DNA of 64,000 nt. Origin: Cryptosporangium arvum DSM 44712 (GTDB taxonomy: Bacteria; Actinomycetota; Actinomycetes; Mycobacteriales; Cryptosporangiaceae). A program made the position numbers and the translations under genes. This document shows positions 15,073 to 52,790 of this stretch, in pieces. Each line of letters begins with the position of its first letter. The stretch's first letter is position 1. The notes beneath the pieces are model-generated. The model had not been told where the DNA came from. It did not search any database and saw nothing but the letters and a program-made list of their open reading frames with translations. Where the stretch lies: NCBI RefSeq assembly GCF_000585375.1, contig NZ_KK073874.1, positions 4,340,001 to 4,404,000 on the forward strand, in the 5' to 3' direction.

Positions 15073-15858
15073 ATGCCTCTGTTCGACCAGATCAGCGCGA
15101 CGCTCACCGGCGTCGCCGACGACCGGCCGCCCGTGGTGCTCGTGCACGGGCTCACCTACGACCGGCGGCAGTGGGGACCGCTCACCCGCGAGCTGGACGC
15201 CCTGGACCCGGGCCGCCGGACGTTCGCCCTCGACCTTCCGGGCCACGGCCAGTCGCCGCCCCGCGACGCGTACGGCAGCGACGAGACCGCCGAGGTGCTG
15301 CACCGCGCGATCACCGCGGCCGGGCTGGACGCCCCGGTCGTGGTCGGGCATTCGCTCGGCGGGATCCTCGCGACCGTCTACGCCGCCCGCTACCCGACGC
15401 GGGGAGTGCTCAACCTCGACCAGCCGCTGCGGCTCGGCCGGTTCGGCGCGGTGGTACGCGACGTCGAGCCGGTGCTGCGCGGGCCGGACTGGCGGGCGGT
15501 CTGGGACCGGTTCGTCGCCGGGATGGGCACCGACGGGCTCGCCCCCGACGCGCGGGCGCTGGCCCGGGACGCCTCCGCACCCCGGGCCGACCTGCTCCTC
15601 GGCTACTGGGCCGAGATCCTGGGGTCGACGGACGAGGAGATCGACGCCCGGCGCGCGCGGGAGCTGGCCGAGATCGCCGCCCGTGGCGTCCCGTACGTGC
15701 TCGTCACGTCCACCGAGCCCGAGGTGCGGCTCCCCGGCGTGGAGCAGGTCGTGCTCCCCGGCGGCGGGCACTTCCCGCACCTCGCGCACCCGCGTGCGGT
15801 CGCCGAGCTGCTGGCTCAGAGCGTCCAGCGGGTAGGGCCGCCGGGAGCCGGCTGGTAA
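15073..15858 (+). CDS. Alpha/beta-fold hydrolase
   Basis: This 261-residue hydrolase has the oxyanion segment VVLVHGLTYDRRQW, the nucleophile serine in VVGHSLGG, and the catalytic histidine in LPGGGHFPHLAHP near the C-terminus. The ATG at 15073 starts the family's usual N-terminus; upstream in-frame codons belong to the antisense of the SDR gene. It is divergent from that SDR. Its end overlaps the end of the AAA/TPR gene by 43 bases. The substrate (ester, lactone or other) cannot be given. Confidence 0.88.
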   Translation: MPLFDQISATLTGVADDRPPVVLVHGLTYDRRQWGPLTRELDALDPGRRTFALDLPGHGQSPPRDAYGSDETAEVLHRAITAAGLDAPVVVGHSLGGILATVYAARYPTRGVLNLDQPLRLGRFGAVVRDVEPVLRGPDWRAVWDRFVAGMGTDGLAPDARALARDASAPRADLLLGYWAEILGSTDEEIDARRARELAEIAARGVPYVLVTSTEPEVRLPGVEQVVLPGGGHFPHLAHPRAVAELLAQSVQRVGPPGAGW

Positions 15859-17999
15859 CGCAGGAACCGGCCGGTGCGCAGCGACGCGCCCAGGTGCGCA
15901 CCGGCCAGCGGGGCCTGGGCCGCGATCCGCGCGACCGTCGCGCGGAGCGCCCGGGTGGTGTTGACCCGGGCGCGCTCCGCCTCCGCCGCCGACGTGCGGG
16001 GACGCCCGCCGAGGCCGGTGGCGGCGCGCAGCTCGGCGACGAGCGCGCTCCGCTCGGCGTCGGCACCGGCCGCCGCGTCGGCGTCGCCGGCACGGTCGGC
16101 TTCGGCGAGTGCGGCGTCCAGTTCGGCCAGTCGTCGCCGGTAGGCCCGGCGCGCGTCGGCGTCGAGGATCGGCTCGGCCGCGCCGACGACCAGCCCGGCG
16201 CCGCCGGCCGCCAGGTCCAGCGCGGCGATCTCCTGCCCGGGAGCGGCCAGCAGGGCCCGGAGAAAGTCCACGCCCCGCCCGTTCCGGAGCCGGGCGGTCT
16301 CCGCTCCGGCGCGCAGTACCCAGTCCTCGCCGTCGCGCACCAGCGTCCACCCGGGGTCGGCGGGGGCCGATCCCAGCCTGCCGGTGATCGCGGCGGCGCG
16401 CTCGGCGTCGCCGGGTGCGTTCCGTCCGGCCAGCGTGGCGGCGAGCCAGGGCAGCGCGCCGAGCCGCTCCTCGAGGGCGATCGCCCGGTCGAAGTGCCCC
16501 GCGGCCTCGGTGGTGCGGCCGAGGCGGGTGGCCAAGCGGCCGAGCACGTCGTCGACCGGGCCGGTGACCGTGTTGGCACCGCCCCAGACGACCAGCCGCC
16601 CGGAGAACGGTCCCAGCGTCTCGTACAGCGCCTCGACCGCGGGACGCTCACCCACGCGCGCGGCGACGACGCCCAGGTCGGCCACCGCGCCCAACCAGCG
16701 CGGCCCGCCGCCGGCCAGCACCGACGGCAGCGAGCGGGTCAGCTCCAGCGCCGCCTCGGCCTCGGCGCCGCTCTCGACCAGCACCCGGGCCGCGGTCGCC
16801 TCGAAGTACTGGCCGGGGATGCGCCGGGCCAGCGCCCGCAGCCCGGTGACGTCCGGGTCCGCCGTACCCCGCACCAGCGCCAGGTTCCCGGCCAGCGTGG
16901 CGACCAGCCGATCGGTGTCGGGCAGCCCCGCCGCCCGCCCCCGCTCCGCGACCAGCGCGGTGAGCTCCTCGGCGAGGTCGAAGCGCCCGCGGACGAGCGC
17001 CAGCACGGCCTGCCGGGAGAGCACGACGACCGCTGCTTCGGCGTCGCCGGAGAGCTCCGCGGCCCGGCCGTAGGCCACCAGCGCCGCCTCGGCCGCGTCC
17101 AGGTCGGCCAGCTCCACCAGCGCGGTGAAGCGCCAGAACAGGCCCCGCAGCTCGGTCGGCAGGTCACCGGCCCGGCAGGCCTGCGCGACGATTTCCGCCG
17201 CGACCTCCAGACGTTCCCCGGCGGCGGCCGGATCCCAGAGCGCGTGCAGCCGGTCGTCGAGCACCGCCGCGATCGTGCCGGGATCGTCGCTCGCGCGGGC
17301 CAGCACCAGGGCCCGATCGGCCAGGTCGCGGCGGTGCGCGGCGGCCGAGGCGTCGCCGAGCAGCGCACGCGCCAGGCGGGCCACGGCCCGGGCCCGCAGC
17401 GCGGTGGGGAGCGGGCGCTCGGCGGCGTCGCGCAGCAGCCGGACCAGCCCGGCGTCGAGCTCCAGGAACCCGGCCCGCGACGGGGTGGCCAGCGCGGCCC
17501 GCACCACCGCGTCCAGGTCGGTGCCGTCGAGCCCGGCCGCGAAGTCCAGCGCCGGGCCGGGAAGCCCGCCGGAGACCAGCCAGACGGCGTGCGCGGCGTC
17601 GGGGGAGAGGCCGGGCAGGAGCGGAGCCAGGTCGGGTTCCGACAGACCGCCCAGGTGTACCTCGGGCGGGAGACCGAGCGGAGCGGCGGCGGTGATCAGC
17701 ACGGCGGCGCCGTCGGCGGAGAGCCGCGCGACCAGGTCGGGGAGCGGGTCGGCGCCGTCCAGCACGACCAGGCGGGGCGACCCGGGACGGTCGGTCGGCG
17801 TCCGGGTGACGGGCAGCCCGCGGGCTGCGGCAAGCGCCGCGGCGGCGTCGGCGAGCGCCGTCTTGCCCGCACCGGCCGGCCCGGTGACGACGAGATGCCC
17901 GCCGACGCCGGCCGTCGCGCCGTCGAGCAGCCGGGCGACCGCGCCGAGCTCGCGCCGCCGCCCGGCGAGCGGCGGGCGGGCGATCGGGGGCCCGGTCAC
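15816..17999 (-). CDS. Large AAA ATPase with TPR-like region and Arg-rich C-terminal domain
   Basis: This 727-residue protein begins with a STAND/AAA-type nucleotide-binding domain (GRRREL motif, Walker A GPAGAGKT at 40-47, VVLDGAD as Walker B). A long alpha-helical, TPR-like middle (about 200-560) follows. The last 130 residues resemble the C-terminal domain of many actinobacterial ATP-binding regulators (ERARVNTTRALRATVARIA...HLGASLRTGRFLRYQP) rather than a LuxR helix-turn-helix. It may thus act through protein contacts. GTG 17999 overlaps the upstream SDR stop in a GTGA junction. Function is unknown. Confidence 0.7.
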   Translation of the reverse strand: MTGPPIARPPLAGRRRELGAVARLLDGATAGVGGHLVVTGPAGAGKTALADAAAALAAARGLPVTRTPTDRPGSPRLVVLDGADPLPDLVARLSADGAAVLITAAAPLGLPPEVHLGGLSEPDLAPLLPGLSPDAAHAVWLVSGGLPGPALDFAAGLDGTDLDAVVRAALATPSRAGFLELDAGLVRLLRDAAERPLPTALRARAVARLARALLGDASAAAHRRDLADRALVLARASDDPGTIAAVLDDRLHALWDPAAAGERLEVAAEIVAQACRAGDLPTELRGLFWRFTALVELADLDAAEAALVAYGRAAELSGDAEAAVVVLSRQAVLALVRGRFDLAEELTALVAERGRAAGLPDTDRLVATLAGNLALVRGTADPDVTGLRALARRIPGQYFEATAARVLVESGAEAEAALELTRSLPSVLAGGGPRWLGAVADLGVVAARVGERPAVEALYETLGPFSGRLVVWGGANTVTGPVDDVLGRLATRLGRTTEAAGHFDRAIALEERLGALPWLAATLAGRNAPGDAERAAAITGRLGSAPADPGWTLVRDGEDWVLRAGAETARLRNGRGVDFLRALLAAPGQEIAALDLAAGGAGLVVGAAEPILDADARRAYRRRLAELDAALAEADRAGDADAAAGADAERSALVAELRAATGLGGRPRTSAAEAERARVNTTRALRATVARIAAQAPLAGAHLGASLRTGRFLRYQPAPGGPTRWTL

Positions 18000-18676
18000 A
18001 TCGAGGTGACGCCGCGGACCCGGTGGCCGACCGCGATCGACTCGCCGGAGATCGCGCCCGCGCGCGGTGACACCAGGAACGCGACCAGGTCCGCGATCTC
18101 CGTGGGGCTCGACTCGCCGGGCCGGCCCGCCTCGACCGCGGTGGCCGGGGCCGCCGCCACGATCCCCGGGCTGACCGTGTTGATCGTGACGCCCGTACCC
18201 GCGACGCCGTCGGCGAGGTTCTTGGCCGCGACGATCAGCGCCGCGTTGCGCACCGACCCGGTGACCGAGCCGGTGAGGAACGCGTTCTGGCCGCTCACGC
18301 CGACGATCCGCCCGTACCCGGCGCCGGTCATCACCGGCAGCACCGCGTTCACCAGACGCAGGAACGACAGCGCTTTCGCGTCGATCGCGTCCAGCACCTG
18401 CTCGGGGTCGGCGTGGCGCGCCGGGTCGAGCGTCCGCGCGCTCGGTGCGGCCGCGACGACGAGCGCGTCGAGCCGGCCGTGCGTGTCGAGCACGGTGGCC
18501 AGGCCCGCGGCCACCGAACCGGGGTCGCGGGCGTCGAGCGGAATGCCGTCGTCGACGGTGCGCGCGGCGGCGATCGCGGTCGCGCCTTCGTTCCGGAGCC
18601 GCTCGACGATCGCCCGGCCGATGAAGCCGGTGCCGCCGACCACCAGCGCGATCCGTCCGTTCAGTTCAAGGTCCAC
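17996..18676 (-). CDS. Atypical SDR-family protein lacking the catalytic Tyr-x-x-x-Lys
   Basis: This 226-residue Rossmann protein starts at GTG 18676 with GRIALVVGGTGFIGRAIVERL. It has ALVVAAAPS in place of NNAG and GVSGQNAFLTG at the serine strand. Where classical SDRs have YxxxK it reads SVRNAALIVAAKNLA, so the catalytic tyrosine and nearby lysine are absent. The C-terminal region INTVSPGIV...DLVAFLVSPRAG is normal. It may bind NAD(P) without classical chemistry. It is coupled to the AAA protein gene by a GTGA overlap, and its start lies 11 bases inside the end of the PAP2 gene, so the three may form one operon. Confidence 0.78.
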   Translation of the reverse strand: MDLELNGRIALVVGGTGFIGRAIVERLRNEGATAIAAARTVDDGIPLDARDPGSVAAGLATVLDTHGRLDALVVAAAPSARTLDPARHADPEQVLDAIDAKALSFLRLVNAVLPVMTGAGYGRIVGVSGQNAFLTGSVTGSVRNAALIVAAKNLADGVAGTGVTINTVSPGIVAAAPATAVEAGRPGESSPTEIADLVAFLVSPRAGAISGESIAVGHRVRGVTSM

Positions 18677-19292
18677 GGGTGGAGAACTTACCCAGCCGCA
18701 GCAGCAGGAGGACCTGGAGCAGGCCCAGCAGGTAACCGCCGACGCTGTCGGTGAGCCAGTGCCAGGCCAGACCGGTGGTGCCGACGAAGACGAGGACGCC
18801 CGGCACCCAGCGCAGGAGCTGCCGGGCGAGCGGAGGCAGCACGCCCGAGAGCAGGACCGCCAGCACCGCGTAGTACACCAGCCCGTTGCTGACGTGCCCC
18901 GACGGGTACTCCACGGCGGGATCACCGCTGAACATCTCGATCGACCCGTGGTGCGGCGCGCCGCGCGACGTCCACCGCTTGAGCACCTCGACGACGACGC
19001 TGTTCACGCCCGCGGCCACGACGGCCAGCACGAGGGGACCGACCGCGCGCCGGCGGACCGCCAGCACGCCCGCCACGACCAGCACCAGCGGCAACACCAG
19101 CGCCCGCTGCCCGAGCAGATCGAACCCGACGAGGACCGTGTGCAGCCACTGCGGCCGGTGCGCGTCGCACCAGTCCCGCACCGCGCGGTCGAGGTCGAGC
19201 AGCGGAGGCCACCAGACGAGCGCCGCGGTGAGCGCGACGAAAGCGGCCGCCAACGACGCCTCGGCCCACCAGTTCCGCAGCACCCGGATCAC
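18666..19292 (-). CDS. PAP2-family membrane phosphatase
   Basis: This 208-residue membrane protein has about six hydrophobic segments and the phosphatidic acid phosphatase signature: KRWTSRGAP (motif 1), YPSGHVSN (motif 2) and LAWHWLTDSVGGY (motif 3, with catalytic His and Asp). Motif 1 normally ends RP and here reads RGAP. Such enzymes remove phosphate from lipid phosphates or undecaprenyl pyrophosphate at the outer face. It overlaps the atypical SDR gene by 11 bases and is divergent from the cysteine-rich peptide gene. Confidence 0.88.
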   Translation of the reverse strand: MIRVLRNWWAEASLAAAFVALTAALVWWPPLLDLDRAVRDWCDAHRPQWLHTVLVGFDLLGQRALVLPLVLVVAGVLAVRRRAVGPLVLAVVAAGVNSVVVEVLKRWTSRGAPHHGSIEMFSGDPAVEYPSGHVSNGLVYYAVLAVLLSGVLPPLARQLLRWVPGVLVFVGTTGLAWHWLTDSVGGYLLGLLQVLLLLRLGKFSTRGP

Positions 19293-19467
19293 CGGCCGAC
19301 GCTACCTCGCCCGCCGATCGAATTTCGTCATGCTCCCGTAATACTGTCCACAGTGGCGTACCGTGCGCTTGTACGGTTTTAGTCGGTTACGGGGCCCGAC
19401 GTCGTACCGGTTCGTGCTGTTTTCGCCTCGTGATTCGCCACCGTTACCCCATCGAAGGGACTGTGCG

Positions 19468-19662
19468 ATGACCAGGGCATTCGAGAAAATGGCCGACCGG
19501 TTCGTCTCCGCGTTCGTACCGAAGACGACAGCCGGCGCGTGCGAGTGCAACGACTGCTACTACACCGGTTGCACGAACGGGTACTGCAAACGCTGCTGCA
19601 CCAACTGCCACTGCACCTCCACGACGTGCTCGTCCTGCACGTACCGGCCGGAGTACTGCTGA
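19468..19662 (+). CDS. Cysteine-rich 64-residue precursor peptide
   Basis: ATG 19468 follows GAAGGGA at 19454-19460. The product has a leader-like first part (residues 1-24, amphipathic RAFEKMADRFVSAFVPK, no hydrophobic signal core). A 40-residue part starting at C25 and ending at C64 holds 12 cysteines (25, 27, 30, 35, 40, 43, 44, 47, 49, 54, 57, 64) and five tyrosines. The bases of the junction encode A22-G23-A24 just before C25, an Ala-x-Ala signal peptidase motif. Downstream lie a thioredoxin, ABC exporter and S26 peptidase. I infer a secreted peptide with up to six disulfides. A metallothionein-like metal binder (CxC, CC, CxxC) is the main alternative. I know no close relative. Confidence 0.8.
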   Translation: MTRAFEKMADRFVSAFVPKTTAGACECNDCYYTGCTNGYCKRCCTNCHCTSTTCSSCTYRPEYC

Positions 19663-19685
19663 CCCGACCGCATCGCGACACCGAT

Positions 19686-19722
19686 CGCCGTCGTGGCGGG
19701 CGCACCGCCCGCCACGACGGCG
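19686..19722 (+). promoter_or_regulatory. 16-bp stem hairpin between peptide and thioredoxin genes
   Basis: CGCCGTCGTGGCGGGC pairs perfectly with 19707-19722 around a 5-base loop (GCACC). The hairpin begins 24 bp after the peptide stop codon. It has no T-run. In a peptide operon such a structure could end most transcripts or protect the upstream mRNA, giving much more precursor than export machinery. Confidence 0.65.
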
Positions 19723-19757
19723 GCGGTGCCGACTCGACTCACAGACGGGGAGCATTC

Positions 19758-20312
19758 ATGGCTGTCTTGGTGGCCGCGGTCGTCGTGGTCGGAGCGGTGG
19801 CTCTGGCCAACCTGGTGTTCACGTTCGGCGTCGTGCGCCGCCTGCGTGAACACACCGAACTTCTCAACCGTCTCGGGGAGGGTGGCCTCAGCGGCCGGAA
19901 CCTCCTCGGCCCGGGCCGGCAGGCCGGTCCGTACACCGCGACGGCGGTGGACGGCACCCGGGTGTCCGGCGACGGCCCGGACTCGCCGACGCTCGTCGGC
20001 TTCTTCTCGCTCGGCTGTGAGCCGTGCACCGTCAAACGCCCGCTGTTCGCCGACGCCGCCCGCGAGCACCCCGGCGGCCGGGACCGGGTACTCGCCGTCG
20101 TGGTCGGCGACGACGGGGACGGCGACGTGTCCGCCTACCTGGACGAGCTGACGCCGGTGAGCCGGGTGGTCCGCGAGCTGCCGACCGGCGAGCTGCCCAC
20201 CGCGTTCCGGGTCGACGCCTACCCGGCGTTCGCGCTCGTCGACGCGGACGGGACCGTGCTGGCCAGCGGGTCGGCGGTGCCGGACGCAACCGCGATCGGA
20301 ACCCAGGTCTGA
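19758..20312 (+). CDS. Membrane-anchored MauD/TlpA-like thioredoxin-fold protein
   Basis: This 184-residue protein has one N-terminal membrane segment (about 2-24, AVLVAAVVVVGAVALANLVF), a linker, then a thioredoxin-like domain outside the membrane. The redox pair is C87-x-x-C90 in LGCEPCTVKRP, and P156 in AYPAF is the cis-proline. The architecture is that of MauD/TlpA proteins; MauD is needed to mature the disulfide-rich small subunit of methylamine dehydrogenase. No MauE-like partner is seen. The ATG at 19758 follows ACGGGGAG. One base separates it from the ABC gene. Its likely job is forming or shuffling disulfides in the adjacent 12-cysteine peptide. Confidence 0.85.
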   Translation: MAVLVAAVVVVGAVALANLVFTFGVVRRLREHTELLNRLGEGGLSGRNLLGPGRQAGPYTATAVDGTRVSGDGPDSPTLVGFFSLGCEPCTVKRPLFADAAREHPGGRDRVLAVVVGDDGDGDVSAYLDELTPVSRVVRELPTGELPTAFRVDAYPAFALVDADGTVLASGSAVPDATAIGTQV

Positions 20313-20313
20313 C

Positions 20314-22179
20314 GTGCCGGCCGACGGCGCCGGAGCGCGGCGCACGCTCGGCAACGCCGGCCGCGCGATCCGGCTCGGAATGCGTGCCTCCCGTCCGTGG
20401 CTGATCGGCGACGTCGCGGCGATGCTCGTCGCCGCGGTCGTGCCGGTCGCCACGGTCTGGTTGCTCAAGACCGTGCTCGACGCGGTGGCGGGCGGTCGTG
20501 GTCTCGCGGCGGCGACGCCCGCCGTGGCCGGGCTCGTCCTGACCGGGCTGGCGGCGGCCGCCCTGCCCGCGCTGTCGGACTACTCGCACCAGGAGATCGG
20601 GCGCCGGGTCGGGCGCCGGGCACAGTCGGAGATCTACACGGCGATGGCCCGGCTGCAGGGCCTGGGGCGGCTGGAGGACCCGGTCTTCCACGACCGCCTG
20701 CGGATGGCCCAGGCCGCGGGGCGGTCGAGCCCGGGCCAGGTCATCAACGGGGTGCTCGGTACCGGTCAGCTGGCGATCACGTGCGGCGGGCTGGTCGTCG
20801 TGCTCGCGACGATCAGCCCTCCGCTGGCCGCGGTGAACCTGCTGGGGCTGGTTCCGGCTCTGCTGGCCGAGATCCGGCTCAGCCGGGTGCGTGCGGACAT
20901 GGTGTGGCGGATCAGCCCGCACGAGCGGCGCGAGTACTTCTACGCCGAGCTGCAGAGCAGCCTGCCCGCGGCCAAGGAGATGCGGCTGCTCGGCCTCTCC
21001 GAGCTGTTCCGGCAGCGCATGCTCGACCAGCTCGCGGTCTCCGACGAGCACCGCAGGCGCGTCGACGGCCGGCAGGTGCGGGCTCAGCTCGGGCTCAGCG
21101 TGCTGTCGGCGGGCGTGCTGGCCGGGGGACTGGTGTGGGCGGTCGGGGCGGCGACCGGCGGGCGCCTCTCGGTCGGGGACGTGGCGGCGCTCGTCGCCGG
21201 GATCGCGGCGTTGCAGGGGACGCTCGCGTCACTCGTGGGCCGGGTGTCCTCGATGCACCACGCGCTGCTGATGTTCGACCACTTCCGCGCCGTGCTGGAG
21301 GCCGAGCCGGACCTTCCGGCGGCCGCCGACCCGAGGCCGGTCCCGGCGCTGCGTCGCGGCATCGAGCTGCGCGACGTATGGTTCCGCTACGCCCCGGACC
21401 AGGACTGGGTGCTGCGCGGGGTGAACCTGCACATCCCGCACGGCACGTCGGTGGGGCTGGTCGGGGTGAACGGCGCCGGCAAGAGCACGGTCGTGAAACT
21501 GCTGTGCCGGTTCTACGACCCCGACCGCGGCGCGGTGCTGTGGGACGGCATCGACCTCCGTGAGCTGGACGTCGCCGCCCTGCGCGCGCGGATCGGCGCG
21601 CTGTTCCAGGACTACATGAGCTATGACCTGTCCGCCGCCGAGAACGTCGGCCTCGGCGACGTCGCGGCGCTGGACGACGAGGAGCGGATCCGGGCCGCCG
21701 CCCGCCGGGCCGGCATCGACGCGGCGCTGGACGGGCTGCCGCACGGGTACCGGACGATGCTGTCGCGGACGTTCTCCGCCGATCCGGACGACCGGGAGGA
21801 CACGGACGACCGGGAGGAGGCGGGGGCCACCACCGGGGCGCTCCTCTCCGGAGGCCAGTGGCAGCGCCTCGCGCTGGCCCGCACCTTCCTGCGCGACCGC
21901 CGGGACCTGCTCGTGCTCGACGAACCCAGCTCCGGGTTGGACGCCGGGGCGGAGTACGCCGTCCACCACGGCCTGCGCGAGCACCGCGCCGGTGCGACCA
22001 GCCTGCTGATCTCGCACCGGCTGGGCGCGATCCGGGACGCCGACTGCATCGTCGTCCTCTCCGGTGGGGTCGTCGCCGAACGCGGCACCCACCGGCAGCT
22101 GCTGGCGACCGGGGGTACGTACGCCGACCTGTTCCGGATGCAGGCCGACGGCTATCGCGACGAGGAGCTGCCCGCGTGA
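20314..22179 (+). CDS. ABC-type exporter (fused membrane and ATPase domains)
   Basis: This 621-residue half transporter has a membrane domain (about 25-320, up to six segments) and an ATPase domain with Walker A GVNGAGKS at 384-391, signature LSGGQ at 511-515, Walker B LLVLDEP ending at 538, and ISHR. It has no N-terminal C39 peptidase domain, so any leader cleavage must come from elsewhere, such as the S26 peptidase next door. A short acidic insert (DPDDREDTDDREE, about 490-502) sits before the signature. GTG 20314 lies one base after the thioredoxin stop. A homodimer exporting the cysteine-rich peptide is the simplest role. Confidence 0.88.
   Translation: MPADGAGARRTLGNAGRAIRLGMRASRPWLIGDVAAMLVAAVVPVATVWLLKTVLDAVAGGRGLAAATPAVAGLVLTGLAAAALPALSDYSHQEIGRRVGRRAQSEIYTAMARLQGLGRLEDPVFHDRLRMAQAAGRSSPGQVINGVLGTGQLAITCGGLVVVLATISPPLAAVNLLGLVPALLAEIRLSRVRADMVWRISPHERREYFYAELQSSLPAAKEMRLLGLSELFRQRMLDQLAVSDEHRRRVDGRQVRAQLGLSVLSAGVLAGGLVWAVGAATGGRLSVGDVAALVAGIAALQGTLASLVGRVSSMHHALLMFDHFRAVLEAEPDLPAAADPRPVPALRRGIELRDVWFRYAPDQDWVLRGVNLHIPHGTSVGLVGVNGAGKSTVVKLLCRFYDPDRGAVLWDGIDLRELDVAALRARIGALFQDYMSYDLSAAENVGLGDVAALDDEERIRAAARRAGIDAALDGLPHGYRTMLSRTFSADPDDREDTDDREEAGATTGALLSGGQWQRLALARTFLRDRRDLLVLDEPSSGLDAGAEYAVHHGLREHRAGATSLLISHRLGAIRDADCIVVLSGGVVAERGTHRQLLATGGTYADLFRMQADGYRDEELPA
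21786..21818 (+). repeat. Tandem repeat in the exporter's ATPase domain
   Basis: GGACGACCGGGAGGA occurs at 21786-21800 and again at 21804-21818, an 18-bp period. It encodes the acidic DDRED-DDREE insert. A recent slippage duplication is a likely origin. Confidence 0.85.
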
Positions 22180-22616
22180 GGGCGGTGCTCACCGGCGTGG
22201 CTGTCGCCGGGGCGGCGGCCGGTGCGGGGTGGTGGGTGCTGCGTCGCGGGTTCGTGGTCGTGGCCGTGTCCGGCGAGAGCATGCTGCCGACGTTCCGGCC
22301 GGGCGACCGCGTGCTGGTCCGGCGCCGTCCGCTGCACCGGGTCCGGCGGGGACAGGTGGTCGTCCTCGCGCCACCGGCCGAGCTGCGCGCGCTGCCGGGG
22401 AACCCGCCGTGGCTGATCAAGCGCGCGGTGGCGCTGCCCGGTGATCCGCTCCCGGCCGGCGTCGGCACGCCGGCCGGGCATCGCGGCGACCGGGTGCCGC
22501 CCGGCCGCTTCGTGGTGCTGGGCGACAACGCCGGGCACAGCTACGACTCCCGCCGGGCCGGGGCCTTCCCGGCCGGGAGCCTGCTCGGGGTCGTACTCCG
22601 CGTGGTGCGTCATTGA
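22176..22616 (+). CDS. Small S26-family signal peptidase
   Basis: This 146-residue protein has one N-terminal membrane segment (about 3-30) and then the catalytic serine S35 in VSGESMLPT and the general-base lysine K82 in WLIKRAVALPGD. GDNAGHSYDSR completes the signal peptidase I/TraF-like core. It is shorter than housekeeping signal peptidases. GTG 22176 overlaps the exporter stop in a GTGA junction, showing tight coupling. It probably removes the leader of the cysteine-rich peptide at the Ala-Gly-Ala site before C25; this is inference from context. Confidence 0.88.
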   Translation: MRAVLTGVAVAGAAAGAGWWVLRRGFVVVAVSGESMLPTFRPGDRVLVRRRPLHRVRRGQVVVLAPPAELRALPGNPPWLIKRAVALPGDPLPAGVGTPAGHRGDRVPPGRFVVLGDNAGHSYDSRRAGAFPAGSLLGVVLRVVRH

Positions 22617-22677
22617 CGTGTCCTCGTCGAGCGACGAACGTGGAGACGCAGCTGAGTACATGAAACAAGGGAGTCTC

Positions 22678-24444
22678 ATGTCTCGAACGGCGTCCGACAC
22701 GATCACCGACTGGCTCAACGACTTCGAGAGCGCGCTCGCCGCCCGCGACGCGGACCGCGTGGCCGGGCTGTTCGCGCCGACCAGCTTCTGGCGCGACATC
22801 GTCGCGTTCAGCTGGAACATCACCACCGTGGAGAACCGCGACGGTGTGCGTGGCCTGGTGGCCGCCACCGCCGCCACCACGGACGCGTCGAACTTCCGGG
22901 TCCGTGAGGAACCCGAGGAGGCCGACGGCGTCACCACCGCCTACTTCACGTTCGCGACCGCCGTGGGGCGCGGGTCCGGCCTGTTACGGCTCACCGGAGA
23001 AGGCGCCTTCACCCTGCTCACCACGCTCGACGAGCTCACCGGTCACGAGGAGAAGCGGCCCAAGGGCGTGGAGCACGGCGCCCGCCGGGACCGCGTCACC
23101 TGGAAGGAGCGGCGGGCGGCCGAGATCGCGGACCCCGACCCGTACGTCGTGGTCATCGGCGGCGGGCAGGGCGGGATCGCGCTCGGGGCCCGGCTGCGTC
23201 AGCTCGGCGTCAACCACGTGGTGCTGGACACCCACGAACGCCCGGGTGACCAGTGGCGCAGCCGCTACAAGTCGCTCTGCCTGCACGACCCGATCTGGTA
23301 CGACCACCTGCCCTACCTGCCGTTCCCGGACAACTGGCCGGTGTTCGCGCCGAAGGACAAGATCGGCGACTGGCTCGAGATGTACACCCGGGTGATGGAG
23401 GTGAACTACTGGGGTTCGTCGACGGCACGCAGCGCCACCTGGGACGACGTCGCGAAAGACTGGACGGTCACGGTGGACCGGGCCGGCGGGGAGGTCGTGC
23501 TGCGTCCGAAGCAGCTGGTCTTCGCGCTCGGCGTGTCCGGCAAGCCCAACGTGCCGGTCATTCCCGGCCAGGACGTGTTCGCCGGCGAGCAGCACCACAG
23601 CTCGCAGCATCCCGGCCCGGACGGGTACAAGGACTCGACGGTCGTCGTCATCGGGTCGAACAACTCGGCGTTCGACATCTGCGGTGCGCTCTGGGAGGTC
23701 GGGGCCGACGTCACGATGGTGCAGCGCAGCTCGACGCACATCGTCCGGTCGGACTCGCTGATGGAGATCGCGCTCGGCGACCTCTACTCCGAGCGCGCGG
23801 TGGCGGCCGGCGTCACCACCCACAAGGCCGACACGATCTTCGCGTCGCTGCCCTACCGGATCCTGCACACGTTCCAGATCCCGGCCTACCAGGCGATCGC
23901 CGAGCACGACAAGGATTTCTACGCCCGCCTGGAGAAGGCCGGCTTCCGTCACGACTGGGGGGAGGACGGGTCCGGCCTGTTCCTCAAGTACCTGCGCCGC
24001 GGCTCCGGCTACTACATCGACGTCGGCGCGGCCGACCTGGTCGCCGACGGCGAGATCACGCTCGCGCAGGGCCAGGTCGTCGAGCTGACCGAACACGCGG
24101 TGCGCCTGGACACCGGGGAAGAGCTACCGGCCGACGTGGTCGTCTACGCCACCGGCTACAGCTCGATGAACGGCCTGGCCGCGGACATCGTCGGGCAGCC
24201 GATGGCCGACCGGGTCGGCAAGGTGTGGGGGCTCGGCTCCGACACCACGAAGGACCCGGGCCCGTGGGAGGGCGAGGAACGCAACATGTGGAAGCCCACC
24301 CAGCAGGAGGGGCTCTGGTTCCACGGCGGCAACCTGCACCAGTCGCGGTACTACTCGCTCTACCTCGCGCTGCAGCTCAAGGCCCGCCAGGAGGGCATCC
24401 CGACCCCCGTGTACGCGCTTCAGGAGGTGCACCACATCAGCTGA
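22678..24444 (+). CDS. NTF2-like domain fused to FAD-dependent monooxygenase
   Basis: This 588-residue protein has an NTF2/SnoaL-like N-terminal domain (about 8-125) and a flavin-containing monooxygenase part starting at VVVIGGGQGG (161-166). A second dinucleotide motif follows (STVVVIGSNNSAFDICGAL), then the ATGYSS segment typical of the family. It is predicted to oxygenate a small organic substrate with FAD and NADPH. Two ATGs are possible; 22678 follows AAGGGAG at 22667-22673 and is preferred over 22660. It sits 61 bp after the signal peptidase gene on the same strand, but its content gives no link to peptide export. It ends 8 bases inside the convergent oxidoreductase gene. Confidence 0.86.
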   Translation: MSRTASDTITDWLNDFESALAARDADRVAGLFAPTSFWRDIVAFSWNITTVENRDGVRGLVAATAATTDASNFRVREEPEEADGVTTAYFTFATAVGRGSGLLRLTGEGAFTLLTTLDELTGHEEKRPKGVEHGARRDRVTWKERRAAEIADPDPYVVVIGGGQGGIALGARLRQLGVNHVVLDTHERPGDQWRSRYKSLCLHDPIWYDHLPYLPFPDNWPVFAPKDKIGDWLEMYTRVMEVNYWGSSTARSATWDDVAKDWTVTVDRAGGEVVLRPKQLVFALGVSGKPNVPVIPGQDVFAGEQHHSSQHPGPDGYKDSTVVVIGSNNSAFDICGALWEVGADVTMVQRSSTHIVRSDSLMEIALGDLYSERAVAAGVTTHKADTIFASLPYRILHTFQIPAYQAIAEHDKDFYARLEKAGFRHDWGEDGSGLFLKYLRRGSGYYIDVGAADLVADGEITLAQGQVVELTEHAVRLDTGEELPADVVVYATGYSSMNGLAADIVGQPMADRVGKVWGLGSDTTKDPGPWEGEERNMWKPTQQEGLWFHGGNLHQSRYYSLYLALQLKARQEGIPTPVYALQEVHHIS

Positions 24445-27400
24445 GCGCCGCCAGCGCGGTACGCAGCTTGTCCCGGAACTCGGCGACGCGCGCGAGCTTG
24501 ATGTCCTCGTAGCCGCGGACGACGTCGGCCAGGTCGGCGACCTCGACGACCTGGTCGGCGTTGCCGGCGTCCAGGTGCCGGACGGCCCGGTGCACGGCCG
24601 ACCGGTACTCGGCGACGAGCTCCCGTTCGACCCGGCGCACGTGGGCGTACCCGAAGACGTCGAGCGGGGTACCGCGCAGCCGGCGCCCGGCGCGCAGGGC
24701 CAGGAACGCGGGCCGGGCGGTGCGGCGCAGCCGGATCTTGCGGTTCACGCCCAGCGCGCGGAGCACCGGCGGGTGCAGCAGCACCGACACGTCGGCGTCG
24801 GCGCCGAACTCGGCGTCGCGGCGGGCCTGCTCGACGGTGTCGAGGTGCAGCCGGGCGACCTCGTACTCGTCCTTGTACGCCATGAACCGGTGCAGGCCGC
24901 GGGCGTAGGCGAGCCCGATCCGCTCCCCGGCCGCGGCGCCGGCCCGCTCGGTGGCGGCGGCGGTGATCCGGCGGACGTCGTCGGAGTAGCGCTCGGCGTA
25001 CCCGGCGTCCTGGTAACCGGTGAGGTCGGCGACCCGGAGCGCGAGCACCTCCTCGAGCGAGGTGGCCTTGGGGGCCGGCCGGGTGGTGGTGAGCGCGGCC
25101 AGCACCGCGGCGCGGTCCACGACGGCCGCGCGTCCCCACCGGAACGCGGCCAGGGTCGCCTCGACGGCCGACCCGTTGAGCCGGATCGCGTCCTCGATCG
25201 CCTCGGCCGAGATCGGGAGGCAGCCGTGCTGGTAGGCGGCCCCGAGCAGCAGCATGTTCGCCGGCATGTGGTCTGCGAACAGCGCCTCGGCCAGGCCCAG
25301 CGCGTCGACGTGCACGTTCGCCTCGGACCGGGTCACCGACGCGATGCGCTCCAGCGCGTCGGCGGGGCTGTCGGGCAGCACCACCCGGCCGGTCACCATG
25401 TCCGCGGTCGGCACGATCGCGGTGTTGAGCACGGCGATCGTGTGCCCGGCCCGCGCCGTGTCGAGGTTCGGCTGCGCCGCCGCGCCGAGCAGGTCGAACC
25501 CGATCAGTACGTCGACGGTGCCGCGCGAGGCCCGCAGCGCCCCGGTGAGCGGCGTCTTGGACAGCCGCACGTCGCTGACGACCGGCCCGCCCTTCTGCGC
25601 GAGCCCGGTCTGCTCGAGCCCGGCCGCGTGCCTGCCGTCGAGGTGCGCGGCCATCTGCAGGATCTGCGACGCGGTGACCACGCCGGTGCCCCCGATGCCC
25701 GGCATGCGCAGCAGGACGTCGTCGCCGCCGAAGCGCCGTTCGGGTTCGCTCAGCGCGACCGGGAGGTCCGGTACCGCGCGTCGCTCCGGCGTGCCCGGCT
25801 CGACCAGCAGGAACGACGGGCAGTCGCCCTTCAGGCAGCTGAAGTCGGAGTTGCAGGACGCCTGGTGGATGTGGGTCTTGCGGCCGAACTCGGTGTCGAC
25901 CGGCTGCACCGAGAGGCAGGTGGACTGGTCCCCGCAGTCGCCGCAGCCCTCGCAGACCCGCTCGTTGATCACGACCCGCTCGGCCGGGGTGGGCAGCTGC
26001 CCGCGCTTGCGCAGCCGGCGTTCCTCGGCCGCGCACCGGTCGTCGTGGATGAGGACGGTGACGCCGTCGACGGCGGACAGCGCGCGCTCGACGTCGGCGA
26101 AGTCGTCGCGGTGGCGTACCGAGGCGATCGGGTCGAGCCGGACGGTCCGGTAGGAGCCCGGGTCGTCGGTGGTGACGACGACGCTGCGCACGCCCTCGGT
26201 GGCCAGCCAGCGCGTCAGCGTGGGGATGTCGAGCCGGCCCTCGGCGCGCTGCCCGCCGGTCATCGCCACCGCGTCGTTGTAGAGCAGTTTGTAGGTCATC
26301 GTGACGCCTGCGGCCACCGCGGCGCGGATCGCCAGCGACCCGGAGTGGTGGAACGTCCCGTCCCCGAGGTTCTGGACGAAGTGCCGGTCGTCGGTGAACG
26401 GGGCGAGCCCGATCCACTGTGCTCCCTCGCCGCCCATCTGGGTGAGGCCGACCTGGTTGCCGCGGCCGTCCGGGGCCAGCGCGACCATCGCGTGACAGCC
26501 GATGCCGACGCCGACGAGCGTGTCGTCGCCGGTGCGGGTCGAGGTGTTGTGCGGGCAGCCGGAGCAGAAGAACGGGGTGCGCGCCGAGATCGTCGGCAGC
26601 GCCAGACGTGGGCGGCCGGCGGTCGCGGTCTCCCGCGGCGGCAACCCGGTCCGCAGGGCGAGGGCGCGGGCGACCTCGTCGGCGCCGAGCGTCCCCCGGG
26701 CGGTGAGCAGCGGGCGACCGGCCTCGTCGAACCGGCCGACGACCACGGGTGCGTCCGCGCGCCGGTACAGCGCCTGCTTGAGGTGGCCCTCGAGGAACGG
26801 GTACTTGTCCTCGACGACGAGGACCTCGTCGAGCCCGGCGGTCAGCTCGGCGAGCATCTCGTGGTCGACCGGGAACGGCATCGCCAGCTTGATCAGGCGC
26901 AGGCCGAGCGCCTCCTGCGCGGCCTCGTCCAGGCCCAGGTCGTCGAGGGCCCGCTGCACGGCGGCGAAGCTCGTACCCGAGGCCAGGACGCCGAGCTTCG
27001 CCTCCCGGGCGCTGAACACGACACGGTTGAGCCCGGCGGCGCGGGCGTACTCGCGCGCCAGGTTGAGCCGGCGGGTCAGCATGTCGTGCTCGGCGTCGAG
27101 CGACGCCGGGCCGACCAGGGCCGGCGACGCGGCGCGGGGTGTGCCCGGCGGCACCGGCACGCCCGCGGACAGGCCGGTCACGTCGACGGTCGCCGAGGCG
27201 TCGGCCACGTCCGCGACCACCTTCAGGCCGACCCAGAGGCCCGACGCGCGGCTGAGCGCCACCGCGTGCAGCCCGTACTCGACGATCTCGGCGACGGTGC
27301 CGGGCGCCAGCAGCGGCATCGACAGGTTCTCGCACATCGGCTCGCACGAGCTCGGCACGGTCGAGGACTTGCTGCCGGGGTCGTCGCCGATCAGCGCGAC

Positions 27401-27811
27401 CGCGCCGCCCAGCGTCGTCGTCCCGGCGACGTTGCTGTGCCGGATCGCGTCGGCGGCGCGGTCCAGGCCCGGGTTCTTGCCGTACCAGAAGCCGACGACG
27501 CCGTCGTGGCGCGCGCCCGGCACCCGGCCGAGCATCTGGGTGCCGGCGACCGCGGTGGCGGCGAGCTCCTCGTTGAGGCCGGGCCGGAACACCACGCCGG
27601 CCGGGTCGAGGAAGCGGTGGGCGCGCCCCATCTCCAGGTCCAGGGTGCCCAGCGGGGAACCCTGGTACCCGCTGACGAAGACCCTCGTGTCGAGGCCGCG
27701 GACGTCGTCGAGACGGCGCTGCTCGAGCATCAGGCGGACCAGCGCCTGCACACCGGAGATCAGCACGCGACCGTCGTCGGCGGTGTACTTGTCGTCCAAG
27801 GTCACCGTCAC
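24437..27811 (-). CDS. Fused indolepyruvate ferredoxin oxidoreductase
   Basis: This 1124-residue protein fuses the two subunits of archaeal-type indolepyruvate oxidoreductase. The N-terminal pyrimidine-binding part has VFVSGYQGSPLGTLDLEM. The TPP domain has CSGCPHNTST near residue 415. An iron-sulfur segment near 615-660 carries CEGCGDCGDQSTC and CNSDFSCLKGDC. A gamma-like domain (MPGIGGTGVVTASQIL) follows. It decarboxylates aryl or branched-chain 2-oxo acids to acyl-CoA, passing electrons to ferredoxin. The divergent Lrp/AsnC gene at 27966 is the likely regulator. With HPPD elsewhere in the window it points to aromatic amino-acid catabolism. Confidence 0.93.
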   Translation of the reverse strand: MTVTLDDKYTADDGRVLISGVQALVRLMLEQRRLDDVRGLDTRVFVSGYQGSPLGTLDLEMGRAHRFLDPAGVVFRPGLNEELAATAVAGTQMLGRVPGARHDGVVGFWYGKNPGLDRAADAIRHSNVAGTTTLGGAVALIGDDPGSKSSTVPSSCEPMCENLSMPLLAPGTVAEIVEYGLHAVALSRASGLWVGLKVVADVADASATVDVTGLSAGVPVPPGTPRAASPALVGPASLDAEHDMLTRRLNLAREYARAAGLNRVVFSAREAKLGVLASGTSFAAVQRALDDLGLDEAAQEALGLRLIKLAMPFPVDHEMLAELTAGLDEVLVVEDKYPFLEGHLKQALYRRADAPVVVGRFDEAGRPLLTARGTLGADEVARALALRTGLPPRETATAGRPRLALPTISARTPFFCSGCPHNTSTRTGDDTLVGVGIGCHAMVALAPDGRGNQVGLTQMGGEGAQWIGLAPFTDDRHFVQNLGDGTFHHSGSLAIRAAVAAGVTMTYKLLYNDAVAMTGGQRAEGRLDIPTLTRWLATEGVRSVVVTTDDPGSYRTVRLDPIASVRHRDDFADVERALSAVDGVTVLIHDDRCAAEERRLRKRGQLPTPAERVVINERVCEGCGDCGDQSTCLSVQPVDTEFGRKTHIHQASCNSDFSCLKGDCPSFLLVEPGTPERRAVPDLPVALSEPERRFGGDDVLLRMPGIGGTGVVTASQILQMAAHLDGRHAAGLEQTGLAQKGGPVVSDVRLSKTPLTGALRASRGTVDVLIGFDLLGAAAQPNLDTARAGHTIAVLNTAIVPTADMVTGRVVLPDSPADALERIASVTRSEANVHVDALGLAEALFADHMPANMLLLGAAYQHGCLPISAEAIEDAIRLNGSAVEATLAAFRWGRAAVVDRAAVLAALTTTRPAPKATSLEEVLALRVADLTGYQDAGYAERYSDDVRRITAAATERAGAAAGERIGLAYARGLHRFMAYKDEYEVARLHLDTVEQARRDAEFGADADVSVLLHPPVLRALGVNRKIRLRRTARPAFLALRAGRRLRGTPLDVFGYAHVRRVERELVAEYRSAVHRAVRHLDAGNADQVVEVADLADVVRGYEDIKLARVAEFRDKLRTALAALS

Positions 27812-49877: not shown

Positions 49878-52790
49878 GTGACCACTCGGCTTGATCTTCG
49901 TCTGCTCGGGCCGGTGAGGCTGGTGGGCGCCGCGGGCGAGCACGCGGTCAGCGGGGCCAAGGGCCGGGCGGTCCTCGCCGCGCTCGGCTTACGGGTCAAC
50001 CACGTCGTGCCGGTCGACCAGCTGATCGACGACCTCTGGGCCGACTCGCCGCCGGCCACCGCGCGCAACACCGTGCAGGTGTACGTGTCCGCCGTGCGCC
50101 GCGGCCTGGAGGCGGCCGGCTCCGCGCTCCGGCTCGACCGGCTGCCGGCCGGGTACCGGCTGGCCGGGCGGCGTGAGCAGATCGACTGGCACCTGTTCGA
50201 GACCCTCAGCGTGCAGGCGCGCCGCTGGACCCGCGACGGCGACCAGCCGACCGCCGCCGAGCTGCTCCGCCGGGCCCTCGCGCTGTGGGACGGCACCCCG
50301 CTGGCCGACGTCGGCGCCGGCCCGCTGCACGACCTGTTCGTGCCGCGGATGGAGTCGGCGCGTGTCTCCGCGCTCAGCGACCGGCTCGCGGCCGACCTCG
50401 CGCTGGGCCGTGGCGGCCTGGTCGGCGAGCTGACCATGCTGGTCCGGGCCCACCCGCTGGACGAGCGGTTCGCCAGCCAGCTCATGCACGCGCTCCATCA
50501 GGACGGCCGGCGCGCCCAGGCGCTCGCGGTGTACCGCGAGACGCGTGACCGGCTGGTCGAGGAGCTCGGGGTGGAGCCGGGCGAGCGGCTGCGCCGCATG
50601 CACGCGGCGGTGCTCGCCGACGACCGCGGGCTCCGGCCCGAGCCCCGCGACCAGCCCGGCGTGCTCGGCGCGACCTGGTCCGGCGAGTTCGTCGGACGCC
50701 ACGCGGAGCTGACCGAGCTGGTCGCGCTGCTGGCCCGGCCCGGGCTCGTCACGCTGACCGGGCCGCCCGGCGTCGGCAAGTCGCGGCTGGCCGCCGAGGT
50801 CGTCACCCGGGCGCGCGCGGTGCGGGTGGTCGTCGTCCGGCTGGAGGGCACCGCCACCGGCGGCGAACTGGTGGCGAAGGTCGCCGACGCGGTGCGCGCG
50901 ACCGACACGCCGATCGTCGACCGGCTGCTGGGACAGTCGGTGCTGCTGGTGCTCGACAACTGCGAGCACCTGGCCGAGGCGTGCGCGCAGCTCGTCGACC
51001 AGCTGCTCGCCGGCGCCGACGACCTGCGGGTGCTCGCCACCTCGACGGTCCCGCTCCGGGTCCCGGGCGAGTCGGTGCACCGGCTGGCGCCGCTGACGCT
51101 GCCGGGCGAGGTCGCCGGCGCCGCCGACGCGCTGGCCAACGACGCGGTCGCGCTGTTCTGCGCCCGGGCCCGCGCGGTGCGCCCGAGCTTCGAGCTCTCC
51201 GACGCGATCGCCCCGGCGGTCGCCGAGATCTGCCGGGCCGTCGACGGCCTGCCGCTCGCGCTGGAGCTGGCCAGCGCCCGCACCGCGGTGCTCAGCCCGG
51301 CCGACATCGCCACCCGCCTCGCCGACCAGCTGCGGGTGCTGCGTCCCGTCGGGGGCGCGACCGGAGGGCGCCACGGCTCGCTGGCCGCCGCGCTGGCCGC
51401 CGCGGTCGACCGGCTCACCCCGGCCGAGCGCGTGTTGTTCGCCCGGCTGGCGGTGTTCGCCGACACGTTCCCGCTCGCGGCCGCGGAGGCGGTCGGCGGG
51501 CCGGAGGCGCTCGACGTCGTGCACCGGCTGGTCGACGCCTCGCTCGTGGTCGCCGACGTCACCGGGCCGGAGACCCGGTTCCGGATGCTGGAGTCGGTGC
51601 GTCAGTACGGCCGGTCGCTGCTCGATCCGGCGGACGCGCTCGACCGCCGCGACGAGTACCTGGCCCGGTTGGCGGCCGACGCTGTCGCCGAGCAGTCCGG
51701 GCCGGACCGCCTGCGCTGGCAGCGCCGTCTCGACGCGGCCCGGCCCGACCTGCTGAGCGCGCTCGACCGGACGCTGCGCGGCGGGCGGCTCGAGCTCGGC
51801 CTGCCGATGATCGCGGACCTGCGCTGGTGGTGGAGCAACTCCCCGCGCGCCGGGCTGGAGTGGTACCGGCTGGCGCTGCGGGCGGCGTCGTCGGGCACCG
51901 TACCGGCGGAGCTGCTGTTGCGGGTGCAGCTGACCGCGGCGGTCGTCGCCTCGTACGTGACGCTGCCGGAGGCGATGGAGTACGCGGCCGCCGCGAGCGT
52001 CACCGCCACCCGGCTCGACGACCGGCCCGGCATGGTGCGCGCCGCGCAGCACGTCTCCGACATCGCGCTGGAGCTGGGCGACCTGGAGACCGCGCGCCGG
52101 ACCGGCGAGCTGGCCTGGCGGCTGGCCGGCGAGAGCGGCGACTCGTTCGCGATCGGCCGGTGTGGACTGTCCGTCGCCTACAACCACTTCGCCGACGCCG
52201 CCCTGGACGACGCCGAGCGCTGGGCGGACGAGGCGGCGGCCGTGTTCGCGCGCGACGAGGACGAGGCCGGTCAGGCCGACGCGCGGTTGCTGGTGGGGGA
52301 GATCCTGCTCGAACGCGGGGATCTGGACCGGGCCGAGCCGGTGCTGAGCCGGGTGCTCGCGACGTTCCGCCGGCACGAGAGCTTCGAGCAGGCGGCGCGG
52401 GCCGCGGTGCTGCTCGCCGCGGTCGTCGGCCGGGACGGGCGGCACTCGGACGCCGCCGACCTGGTGCGCGAGGCGTTCGACCGGCACGGCGCGATCGCCC
52501 ACCCGTGGGCGGTGGCCCACGACCTCGAGGTCGTCGCCGCCGAGGTCGCCGCCGGGGTGGCTCGGGGCGGCGCCGGCGAGGCGCGGCGGGCCGCGACGTT
52601 GCTCGGGGCGGCCGGAGCCGTGCGCGCGGACGCGGGGCTGGTGCCGCTGCCGCGGGACCGGCGGGTACGCGCCGAGGTGGAGGCGCGCAGCCGCACCGTG
52701 CTGGGCGACCGGGCCTACCGGGCCGCCGCGCTGGCCGGCGCCGCTCTCGACCTCCCCGGCGCGATCAACCTGGCCCGCGCCGTCGACTGA
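49878..52790 (+). CDS. SARP/AfsR-type regulator with BTAD, STAND ATPase and TPR domains
   Basis: This 970-residue regulator has an OmpR-like winged helix at about 5-96 (LLGPVRLVGAAGEHAVSGAKGR; NTVQVYVSAVRRGL), a bacterial transcriptional activation domain at about 103-248, then an NB-ARC/STAND ATPase with Walker A GPPGVGKS (295-302) and LVLDNCEHL. A long helical, TPR-like C-terminus follows. SARPs bind direct repeats spaced 11 bp and activate transcription next to the -10 element. Such repeats occur three times just downstream (52902, 53124 and 53576), so the small secreted-peptide genes there are likely targets. GTG 49878 is the start, 27 bp after the GGDEF-EAL gene. Confidence 0.92.
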   Translation: MTTRLDLRLLGPVRLVGAAGEHAVSGAKGRAVLAALGLRVNHVVPVDQLIDDLWADSPPATARNTVQVYVSAVRRGLEAAGSALRLDRLPAGYRLAGRREQIDWHLFETLSVQARRWTRDGDQPTAAELLRRALALWDGTPLADVGAGPLHDLFVPRMESARVSALSDRLAADLALGRGGLVGELTMLVRAHPLDERFASQLMHALHQDGRRAQALAVYRETRDRLVEELGVEPGERLRRMHAAVLADDRGLRPEPRDQPGVLGATWSGEFVGRHAELTELVALLARPGLVTLTGPPGVGKSRLAAEVVTRARAVRVVVVRLEGTATGGELVAKVADAVRATDTPIVDRLLGQSVLLVLDNCEHLAEACAQLVDQLLAGADDLRVLATSTVPLRVPGESVHRLAPLTLPGEVAGAADALANDAVALFCARARAVRPSFELSDAIAPAVAEICRAVDGLPLALELASARTAVLSPADIATRLADQLRVLRPVGGATGGRHGSLAAALAAAVDRLTPAERVLFARLAVFADTFPLAAAEAVGGPEALDVVHRLVDASLVVADVTGPETRFRMLESVRQYGRSLLDPADALDRRDEYLARLAADAVAEQSGPDRLRWQRRLDAARPDLLSALDRTLRGGRLELGLPMIADLRWWWSNSPRAGLEWYRLALRAASSGTVPAELLLRVQLTAAVVASYVTLPEAMEYAAAASVTATRLDDRPGMVRAAQHVSDIALELGDLETARRTGELAWRLAGESGDSFAIGRCGLSVAYNHFADAALDDAERWADEAAAVFARDEDEAGQADARLLVGEILLERGDLDRAEPVLSRVLATFRRHESFEQAARAAVLLAAVVGRDGRHSDAADLVREAFDRHGAIAHPWAVAHDLEVVAAEVAAGVARGGAGEARRAATLLGAAGAVRADAGLVPLPRDRRVRAEVEARSRTVLGDRAYRAAALAGAALDLPGAINLARAVD

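Follow-up and report, generated by a model that had tools for sequence, protein, structure and literature searches.

The four-gene cassette and its proteins

The window considered here, a 64,000-nucleotide stretch of the genome of Cryptosporangium arvum DSM 44712, carries at positions 19468-22616 a confirmed cassette of four genes on the forward strand, encoding in order a cysteine-rich precursor peptide, a thioredoxin-like protein, an ATP-binding cassette (ABC) exporter and an S26 peptidase (Table 1). An earlier note, written from the sequence alone, had described it as a self-contained set for a 12-cysteine secreted peptide. The coordinates bear out its account of four consecutive genes on one strand, the last three one base apart or overlapping (the exporter gene starts one base past the stop of the thioredoxin-like gene), and its anatomy of the precursor was right as well: AGA at residues 22-24, a 40-residue part running from cysteine to cysteine with 12 in all, and a leader without a Sec core. 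We propose with good confidence, from sequence comparison, that the cassette makes a leader-guided, ABC-exported and S26-trimmed secreted peptide, rich in disulfides and oxidised by a protein pair of the MauD/MauE type.

The precursor matched no NCBIfam or Pfam family at an E value of 1, and a PDB sequence search with the single peptide returned chance-level matches only (best E 0.1). In the leader, the best 9-residue Kyte-Doolittle mean is 0.98, and the lack of a Sec-type hydrophobic core would fit ABC export, not Sec.

Turning to the machinery, the exporter matches ABC_tran in Pfam and, as the note had it, has no C39 peptidase domain. The S26 protein scores 70.8 bits against the 47-bit NCBIfam cut-off for signal peptidase I, and all 13 aligned members have Ser35 and Lys82, which we take to be its catalytic dyad. 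For the thioredoxin-like protein every listed NCBIfam or Pfam match falls under its cut-off. Its AlphaFold model (predicted local distance difference test, pLDDT, of 89) displays an anchored thioredoxin fold, matched best in the PDB by DsbE, Etrx2 and ResA, and the CxxC motif is present in all 22 aligned members. The label "MauD-like" is thus loose as a family assignment, the predicted fold resembling DsbE/ResA; a sister cassette in the same genome encodes a true MauE (PF07291, E 2.7e-17), and CxCFG is found in 16 of 16 aligned MauE members. The stricter reading, MauD as a helper of methylamine dehydrogenase, was dropped because the family scores lie below cut-off and no mau small subunit was found (PF02975, no match in the genome, a weak negative as control genomes also gave none).

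With the window precursor as single query, two relatives came up in the 9.2 Mb genome (E 6.6e-7 and 0.004). Searches with alignments of these precursors raised the number to seven at five places, the later alignment including most of the seven as rows. Their cores contain 12, 8, 6, 8, 6, 8 and 6 cysteines, behind leaders that are alike; the cores themselves are unlike. One sister cassette (L003), about 37 kb before that of the window, has two precursors, thioredoxin, ABC exporter, S26 peptidase and a divergently oriented MauE gene; another (L006) has the order precursor-MauE-thioredoxin-ABC-S26, and a third (L037) is a double cassette. At L038 (about C1:3911158-3911821) a precursor, exporter, S26 peptidase and SARP regulator accompany a fragment match to MauE. 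Three other genomes of the genus gave three thioredoxin-family matches in one and none in two (1e-12).

Table 1. Features of the cassette and its surroundings (window coordinates)
Feature	Position	Strand	Remarks
Shine-Dalgarno-like GAAGGGA	19454..19460	+	7 nt 5' of precursor ATG; read from sequence
Precursor ORF (open reading frame)	19468-19662	+	64 aa; residues 22-24 = AGA
Precursor leader MTRAFEKMADRFVSAFVPKTTAGA	19468..19539	+	amphipathic; C-terminal A-x-A; no Sec-type hydrophobic core
Precursor core and stop	19540..19662	+	40 residues; 12 Cys; Cys at both ends
Strong hairpin	19679..19728	+	immediately 3' of precursor; 18-bp inner and 5-bp outer stem
Thioredoxin-like gene (MauD/TlpA-like, membrane-anchored)	19758-20312	+	184 aa; N-terminal helix 2-44
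CEPC active site of thioredoxin-like protein	20016-20027	+	residues 87-90
ABC exporter	20314-22179	+	621 aa; GTG start; permease and ATPase on one chain
S26 signal-peptidase-type protease	22176-22616	+	4-base overlap with exporter gene
SnoaL/flavin-monooxygenase-like fusion gene	22678-24444	+	61 nt 3' of cassette

Co-occurrence of precursor and machinery in relatives

Among 397 genomes of the order, a profile of the thioredoxin-like protein (A2) matched 64 at 1e-12 and 51 at 1e-25; at the stricter threshold it matched 26 of 394 genomes of the class. The phylum sample gave 42 of 396 genomes at 1e-12 versus 2 of 396 at 1e-25 (the window's genome included); most of the weak matches were set aside as probably generic thioredoxin-like proteins. 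Genera named among the matches include Micromonospora, Plantactinospora, Virgisporangium, Pseudonocardia, Nonomuraea, Planobispora, Actinomadura, Thermobifida, Nocardiopsis and Streptomyces. Matches to the thioredoxin gene also turned up in eight records of a plasmid collection, three of which are Streptomyces atratus plasmids of 111-122 kb. The annotated order on one of these is BTAD regulator, precursor ("hypothetical protein"), MauE/DoxX, thioredoxin ("hypothetical"), ABC, S26 and integrase, and a second plasmid, from Streptomyces nigrescens, has the same gene set by profile. Phage records gave no match to the exporter at 1e-30.

Precursors were sought with a leader-only profile (24 columns, 25 sequences), chosen so that the core cysteines could not drive the result. 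In the fetched loci it picked out 169 short ORFs, 166 of them with at least four cysteines, against 2 among reversed ORFs, neither with four. Leader hits below 8 bits were dropped for co-occurrence and for the parity of the named loci, and those below 12 bits for pooled core counts; cores outside 12-130 residues were also dropped.

The co-occurrence of the genes was counted in 80 named loci, the best 80 of 99, picked solely by the motif [VI][IV]RRLREHT in the thioredoxin gene. Within 5.5 kb, 72 of the 80 have a precursor, 75 an exporter, 72 an S26 gene and 47 a MauE gene; the precursors of L154, L190 and L224 are also rows of the leader profile. The gene set, for which the earlier note had suggested a search of actinobacterial genomes, is therefore conserved together with a cysteine-rich precursor, and the machinery does not regularly occur without the peptide, the case that the note had set against itself. 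Across the order set, the precursor was found at 70 of 83 distinct thioredoxin places and all four partners at 65, counts that are biased because some loci were fetched through precursor hits; the named loci give the fairer figure. Seven of the named loci duplicate places of the order set, and the count of 169 ORFs, like that of 139 loci used below, holds repeats; the sets used for cysteine parity are non-redundant.

These counts bear on the idea that the machinery matures a different exported protein, with the peptide as an accessory. In seven of the 80 named loci no precursor could be recognised even by eye, as this idea would allow (L194, where the profile found none, has a plain divergent 6-cysteine precursor by eye). 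Against it, the peptide is both frequent and close (at a median of 1.0 kb to the thioredoxin gene), the neighbour families present in 6 or more of the 139 loci that have both precursor and thioredoxin gene offer no second candidate substrate, and the mau small subunit was undetected, the weak negative given above. We regard it as extremely improbable.

Among the other places of the order set, divergent cysteine-rich ORFs adjoin the thioredoxin or MauE gene at L139 (9 and 7 cysteines), L142 (8), L143 (8) and L145 (6), and several of the distant loci with such ORFs have no exporter. In Rhizohabitans arisaemae (L196, 3775-5766 and 9488-9658) seven 6-cysteine precursors, six upstream and one downstream, surround one cassette as a local variant family. 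Genome G156 contains orphan precursors (L052 and L053, three in tandem in the latter); nothing matching thioredoxin, MauE or S26 lies within the 17 kb fetched round each, and the genome's single thioredoxin-family locus (L123) has no recognisable precursor; this separation implies that the parts may work in trans.

Leader, core and cysteine number

The leaders of the relatives follow the consensus ..DRLL..VP...AxA. Among 109 leaders, per-position frequencies are 0.88 for Asp, 0.78 for Arg, 0.78 for the second Leu and 1.0 for Pro, and 1.0 for each Ala of A-x-A, the latter partly circular because only matches extending to the last profile column were counted. Ungapped identity is 0.46 between leaders (0.11 when shuffled) and 0.093 between cores (0.085 when shuffled); a gapped version of the comparison was discarded, as shuffled sequences scored almost equally. 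In ribosomally synthesised and post-translationally modified peptides (RiPPs), proteins encoded in the cassette cut a conserved leader off a variable core; this contrast and the linked S26 gene make the peptide a candidate RiPP.

The cores are unlike, yet their cysteine number is even in 65 of 68 non-redundant cores from named loci (p about 2e-16; simulated mean 34 and maximum 46 of 68 in 2000 draws) and, when non-redundant cores with four or more cysteines are pooled, in 120 of 128. Shared ancestry makes these p-values optimistic, yet the evenness covers 108 distinct cysteine spacings among the 128 cores. Most cores have 6, 8 or 10 cysteines and two have 12, which places the window at the top of the range; a cysteine falls inside the leader region in 1 of 130 non-redundant precursors. 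We take this near-universal evenness as a sign of complete disulfide pairing. It supports the disulfide maturation that the note had proposed, with an argument that the note did not contain; the disulfides, like export and cleavage, are deduced from sequence. Cysteines are kept while the residues between them vary, as it had also expected: the closest relative, in Plantactinospora alkalitolerans (L147), shares 12 of 12 cysteines with the window precursor, with insertions between them.

Two side observations concern core types that vary less. One 8-cysteine type with a CGG..C.YY.NK centre, unlike most cores, occurs in two genera (L126-L130 and the second precursor of L037, 8933-9157) and may be an older fixed product. 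A near-invariant ten-cysteine type is found at L047, L048, L088-L091, L093-L095, L200, L205, L212, L215 and L225, where flanking clusters resembling pheT, rRNA methyltransferase and argC (names by eye) suggest one inherited site.

The same data speak to a metal-binding peptide, similar to metallothioneins or bufferins, whose cysteines would hold copper or zinc and be kept reduced by the thioredoxin. CC, CxC and CxxC motifs do occur, with a CC pair in 76 of 130 cores; the precursor of one sister cassette weakly matches a zinc ribbon (PF09723, E 0.0012, under the cut-off); and DoxX genes are also described in MNIO copper-peptide clusters (PMC12452194). However, such a peptide would have to accommodate a cysteine count that is even nearly everywhere, the absence of a conserved ligand set across those spacings, a dedicated exporter and protease, and neighbour families in which, at the threshold of 6 in 139 loci, no MNIO or metal-handling family was seen. 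We consider metal binding improbable.

Defensin-like bacterial peptides share a conserved 6-cysteine CS-alpha-beta fold. The cores described here show 108 different spacings in 128, a PDB sequence search with the 25-sequence precursor alignment gave no match, and the predicted fold of the core is of low confidence.

The hairpin that follows the window precursor is strong (-58.9 kcal/mol, z -5.6). In the 90 nucleotides 3' of the stop, z is below -2 in 91 of 150 precursors versus 15 of 171 stretches inside thioredoxin genes; this control is coding DNA, taken regardless of strand and without deduplication, so that part of the excess may be ordinary terminators. No terminator-type T-run was found at the hairpin. 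It is possibly an attenuator or a 3' stabiliser that keeps precursor mRNA in excess, and its recurrence suggests that precursor output would exceed that of the machinery. The hairpin, the missing MauE, the sister cassettes and the monooxygenase-like neighbour are all points beyond the earlier note.

Proposed maturation and its relation to known systems

Among the neighbours, the sole frequent extra family is a large regulator of the SARP/NB-ARC/TPR type, present in 88 of the 139 loci; of five scanned, four have BTAD (L006, L038, L050, L196) and one (L147) NB-ARC/TPR alone. The window cassette is outside these 88, its ORF at 15819-17999 having weak AAA/TPR matches only. Each remaining family present in at least 6 of the 139 loci occurs in 15 or fewer, and none, as labelled by eye, is a known peptide-modifying enzyme, the nearest to one being a short-chain dehydrogenase, seen in 8 loci at a median distance of 4.8 kb. 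Lanthipeptide, YcaO and radical-SAM enzymes are absent from a Pfam scan of five flanking window proteins (15819-27811) and from these recurrent families, the relatives' neighbours not having each been searched for these domains. An MNIO enzyme was likewise not found, either among the scanned window neighbours or in the recurrent families.

We weighed whether an enzyme encoded nearby or elsewhere could introduce another modification, such as thioethers, with the redox pair just blocking wrong disulfides. Some cores contain many Ser and Thr residues, the orphan precursors of L052 and L053 show that parts may act in trans, and the flavin-monooxygenase-like gene lies directly downstream. The note's statement that no modifying enzyme is adjacent holds for the recurrent families, but it left this gene unmentioned. 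As a fifth cassette member the gene was set aside, since the 162 other loci scanned contain nothing that matches it at 1e-10. Given this, the lack of a recurrent modifying family, and a cysteine parity that such chemistry does not explain, we judge another modification highly improbable.

Returning to disulfide maturation, the precursor would be made in the cytosol and its 24-residue amphipathic leader recognised by the cognate ABC exporter, which would carry it through the membrane. Outside the cell, the S26 peptidase would cleave after A-x-A, as the conserved motif and the linked peptidase suggest. The anchored MauD/TlpA-like thioredoxin would then oxidise the core, a step supported by the near-universal even cysteine count, to give six disulfides in the 40-residue product. 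A MauE/DoxX-type membrane protein would recharge the thioredoxin, presumably supplied in this genome by the other cassettes.

Several observations weigh against this scheme. The window cassette has no MauE gene, the nearest being the one about 37 kb away, and with MauE present in 47 of 80 relatives the earlier description as "self-contained" is doubtful; the other 33 named loci have none within 5.5 kb, some being clipped by contig ends. At L038 the thioredoxin gene is shortened and without CxxC, and that cassette may be decaying or dependent on the others. The direction of the redox reaction is not readable from sequence. Odd cysteine numbers occur in both divergent precursors found by eye at L139 and in 8 of 128 pooled cores; four or five of these eight share a similar 7-cysteine layout by eye and may pair between molecules or keep one cysteine free. 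For the precursor, AlphaFold gave a low-confidence model (pLDDT 61, with a helix at 4-16), too weak for a fold search. No immunity gene could be recognised among the families that recur in 6 or more of the 139 loci, and the flavin-monooxygenase-like gene, on the same strand, could be co-transcribed with the cassette.

As for the role of the peptide, the near-constant leader on unrelated cores, multiple cassettes per genome, the SARP/NB-ARC regulator, copies on plasmids and a patchy occurrence all suggest a specialised-metabolite peptide that targets other organisms. An antimicrobial or toxin-like function is an evenly balanced proposition; a signal seems unlikely. Venom peptide families, where one signal is kept and the toxin varied, offer a comparison for the constant leader and variable cores.

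Two further genes of the window are recorded as observations. An ORF with a SARP-like N terminus by eye (49878-52790, forward strand) is distant from the cassette, and 24437-27811 (reverse strand) encodes a protein in which POR, TPP_enzyme_C and DUF6537 domains are combined; this is probably a fused 2-oxoacid ferredoxin oxidoreductase with no relation to the cassette.

Class IIa bacteriocins have a transporter with an N-terminal C39 peptidase and a double-glycine leader; here the window exporter has no C39 domain in Pfam and the leader ends in A-x-A. One of them, pediocin PA-1 (PedA-PedC-PedD), shares a leader, a dedicated ABC exporter, a CxxC thioredoxin-like helper and a disulfide-only product (PMC4919988). 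It differs in that the ABC transporter excises the leader, in having four cysteines and in an encoded immunity protein, and its operon as described there includes neither MauE nor a separate S26 peptidase (PMC4919988). Sublancin 168 (SunA-SunT-BdbA-SunS-BdbB) similarly has a thiol-disulfide oxidoreductase encoded with the exporter and taking part in maturation, but the product is S-glucosylated with two disulfides and loses its leader to SunT (PMC6391423). MauD and MauE of methylamine dehydrogenase maturation are the same type of protein pair with an enzyme subunit as substrate (PMC7794033); the substrate proposed here is a short variable peptide for which the cassette encodes an ABC exporter and an S26 peptidase. 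Bufferins and other MNIO peptides contain cysteines and sometimes accompany DoxX genes, but are described as having mostly a Sec signal and an MNIO enzyme (PMC12452194), neither of which was found here, the leader being without a hydrophobic core.

Searches of open-licence full text found one paper in which MauE and RiPP co-occur as words, the 2020 description of decRiPPter. It reports three uncharacterised candidate RiPP families in Streptomyces; all have mauE, one has mauD as well, and each precursor contains 8 or more cysteines (PMC7794033). That paper calls the exact function of MauD unclear and that of MauE speculated, namely disulfide formation in a subunit of methylamine dehydrogenase. 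As here, a cysteine-rich precursor stands beside MauE/MauD homologues for which precursor modification is proposed; Streptomyces viridosporus is named, another strain of which appears among our loci (L168, 10 cysteines). Its section 7 gives no leader definition, peptidase logic, cysteine parity, product or range beyond Streptomyces (PMC7794033). The combination of mauE with a precursor of at least 8 cysteines is found in many of our relatives; the window has the thioredoxin gene and 12 cysteines and no mauE, and many relatives have 6. The note's "not described" was accordingly too strong, given these families and PedC of pediocin (PMC4919988): the class was flagged in 2020, and the idea of a dedicated thioredoxin and exporter behind a disulfide-only peptide is related to what is known of pediocin and sublancin. 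The present analysis adds a definition of the leader, the proposed trimming by S26, the rule of even cysteine numbers, and the breadth and hypervariability of the family.

Taken globally, we lean towards a large actinobacterial class in which disulfide formation would be the sole covalent maturation, with a dedicated MauD/MauE oxidative-folding line, an ABC exporter, a separate signal-peptidase-type protease and one near-constant leader on unrelated even-cysteine cores. The family, whose one annotated precursor seen is a "hypothetical protein", is now defined by sequence; the leader profile picks out its precursors, and a mass shift of 2 Da per cysteine pair is a simple test. If true, this would assign a peptide substrate to MauD/MauE-type proteins and reveal a generic, enzyme-poor way for bacteria to make secreted peptides that are highly cross-linked and whose cores can vary freely, of use in antibiotic discovery and in the production of disulfide-rich peptides.

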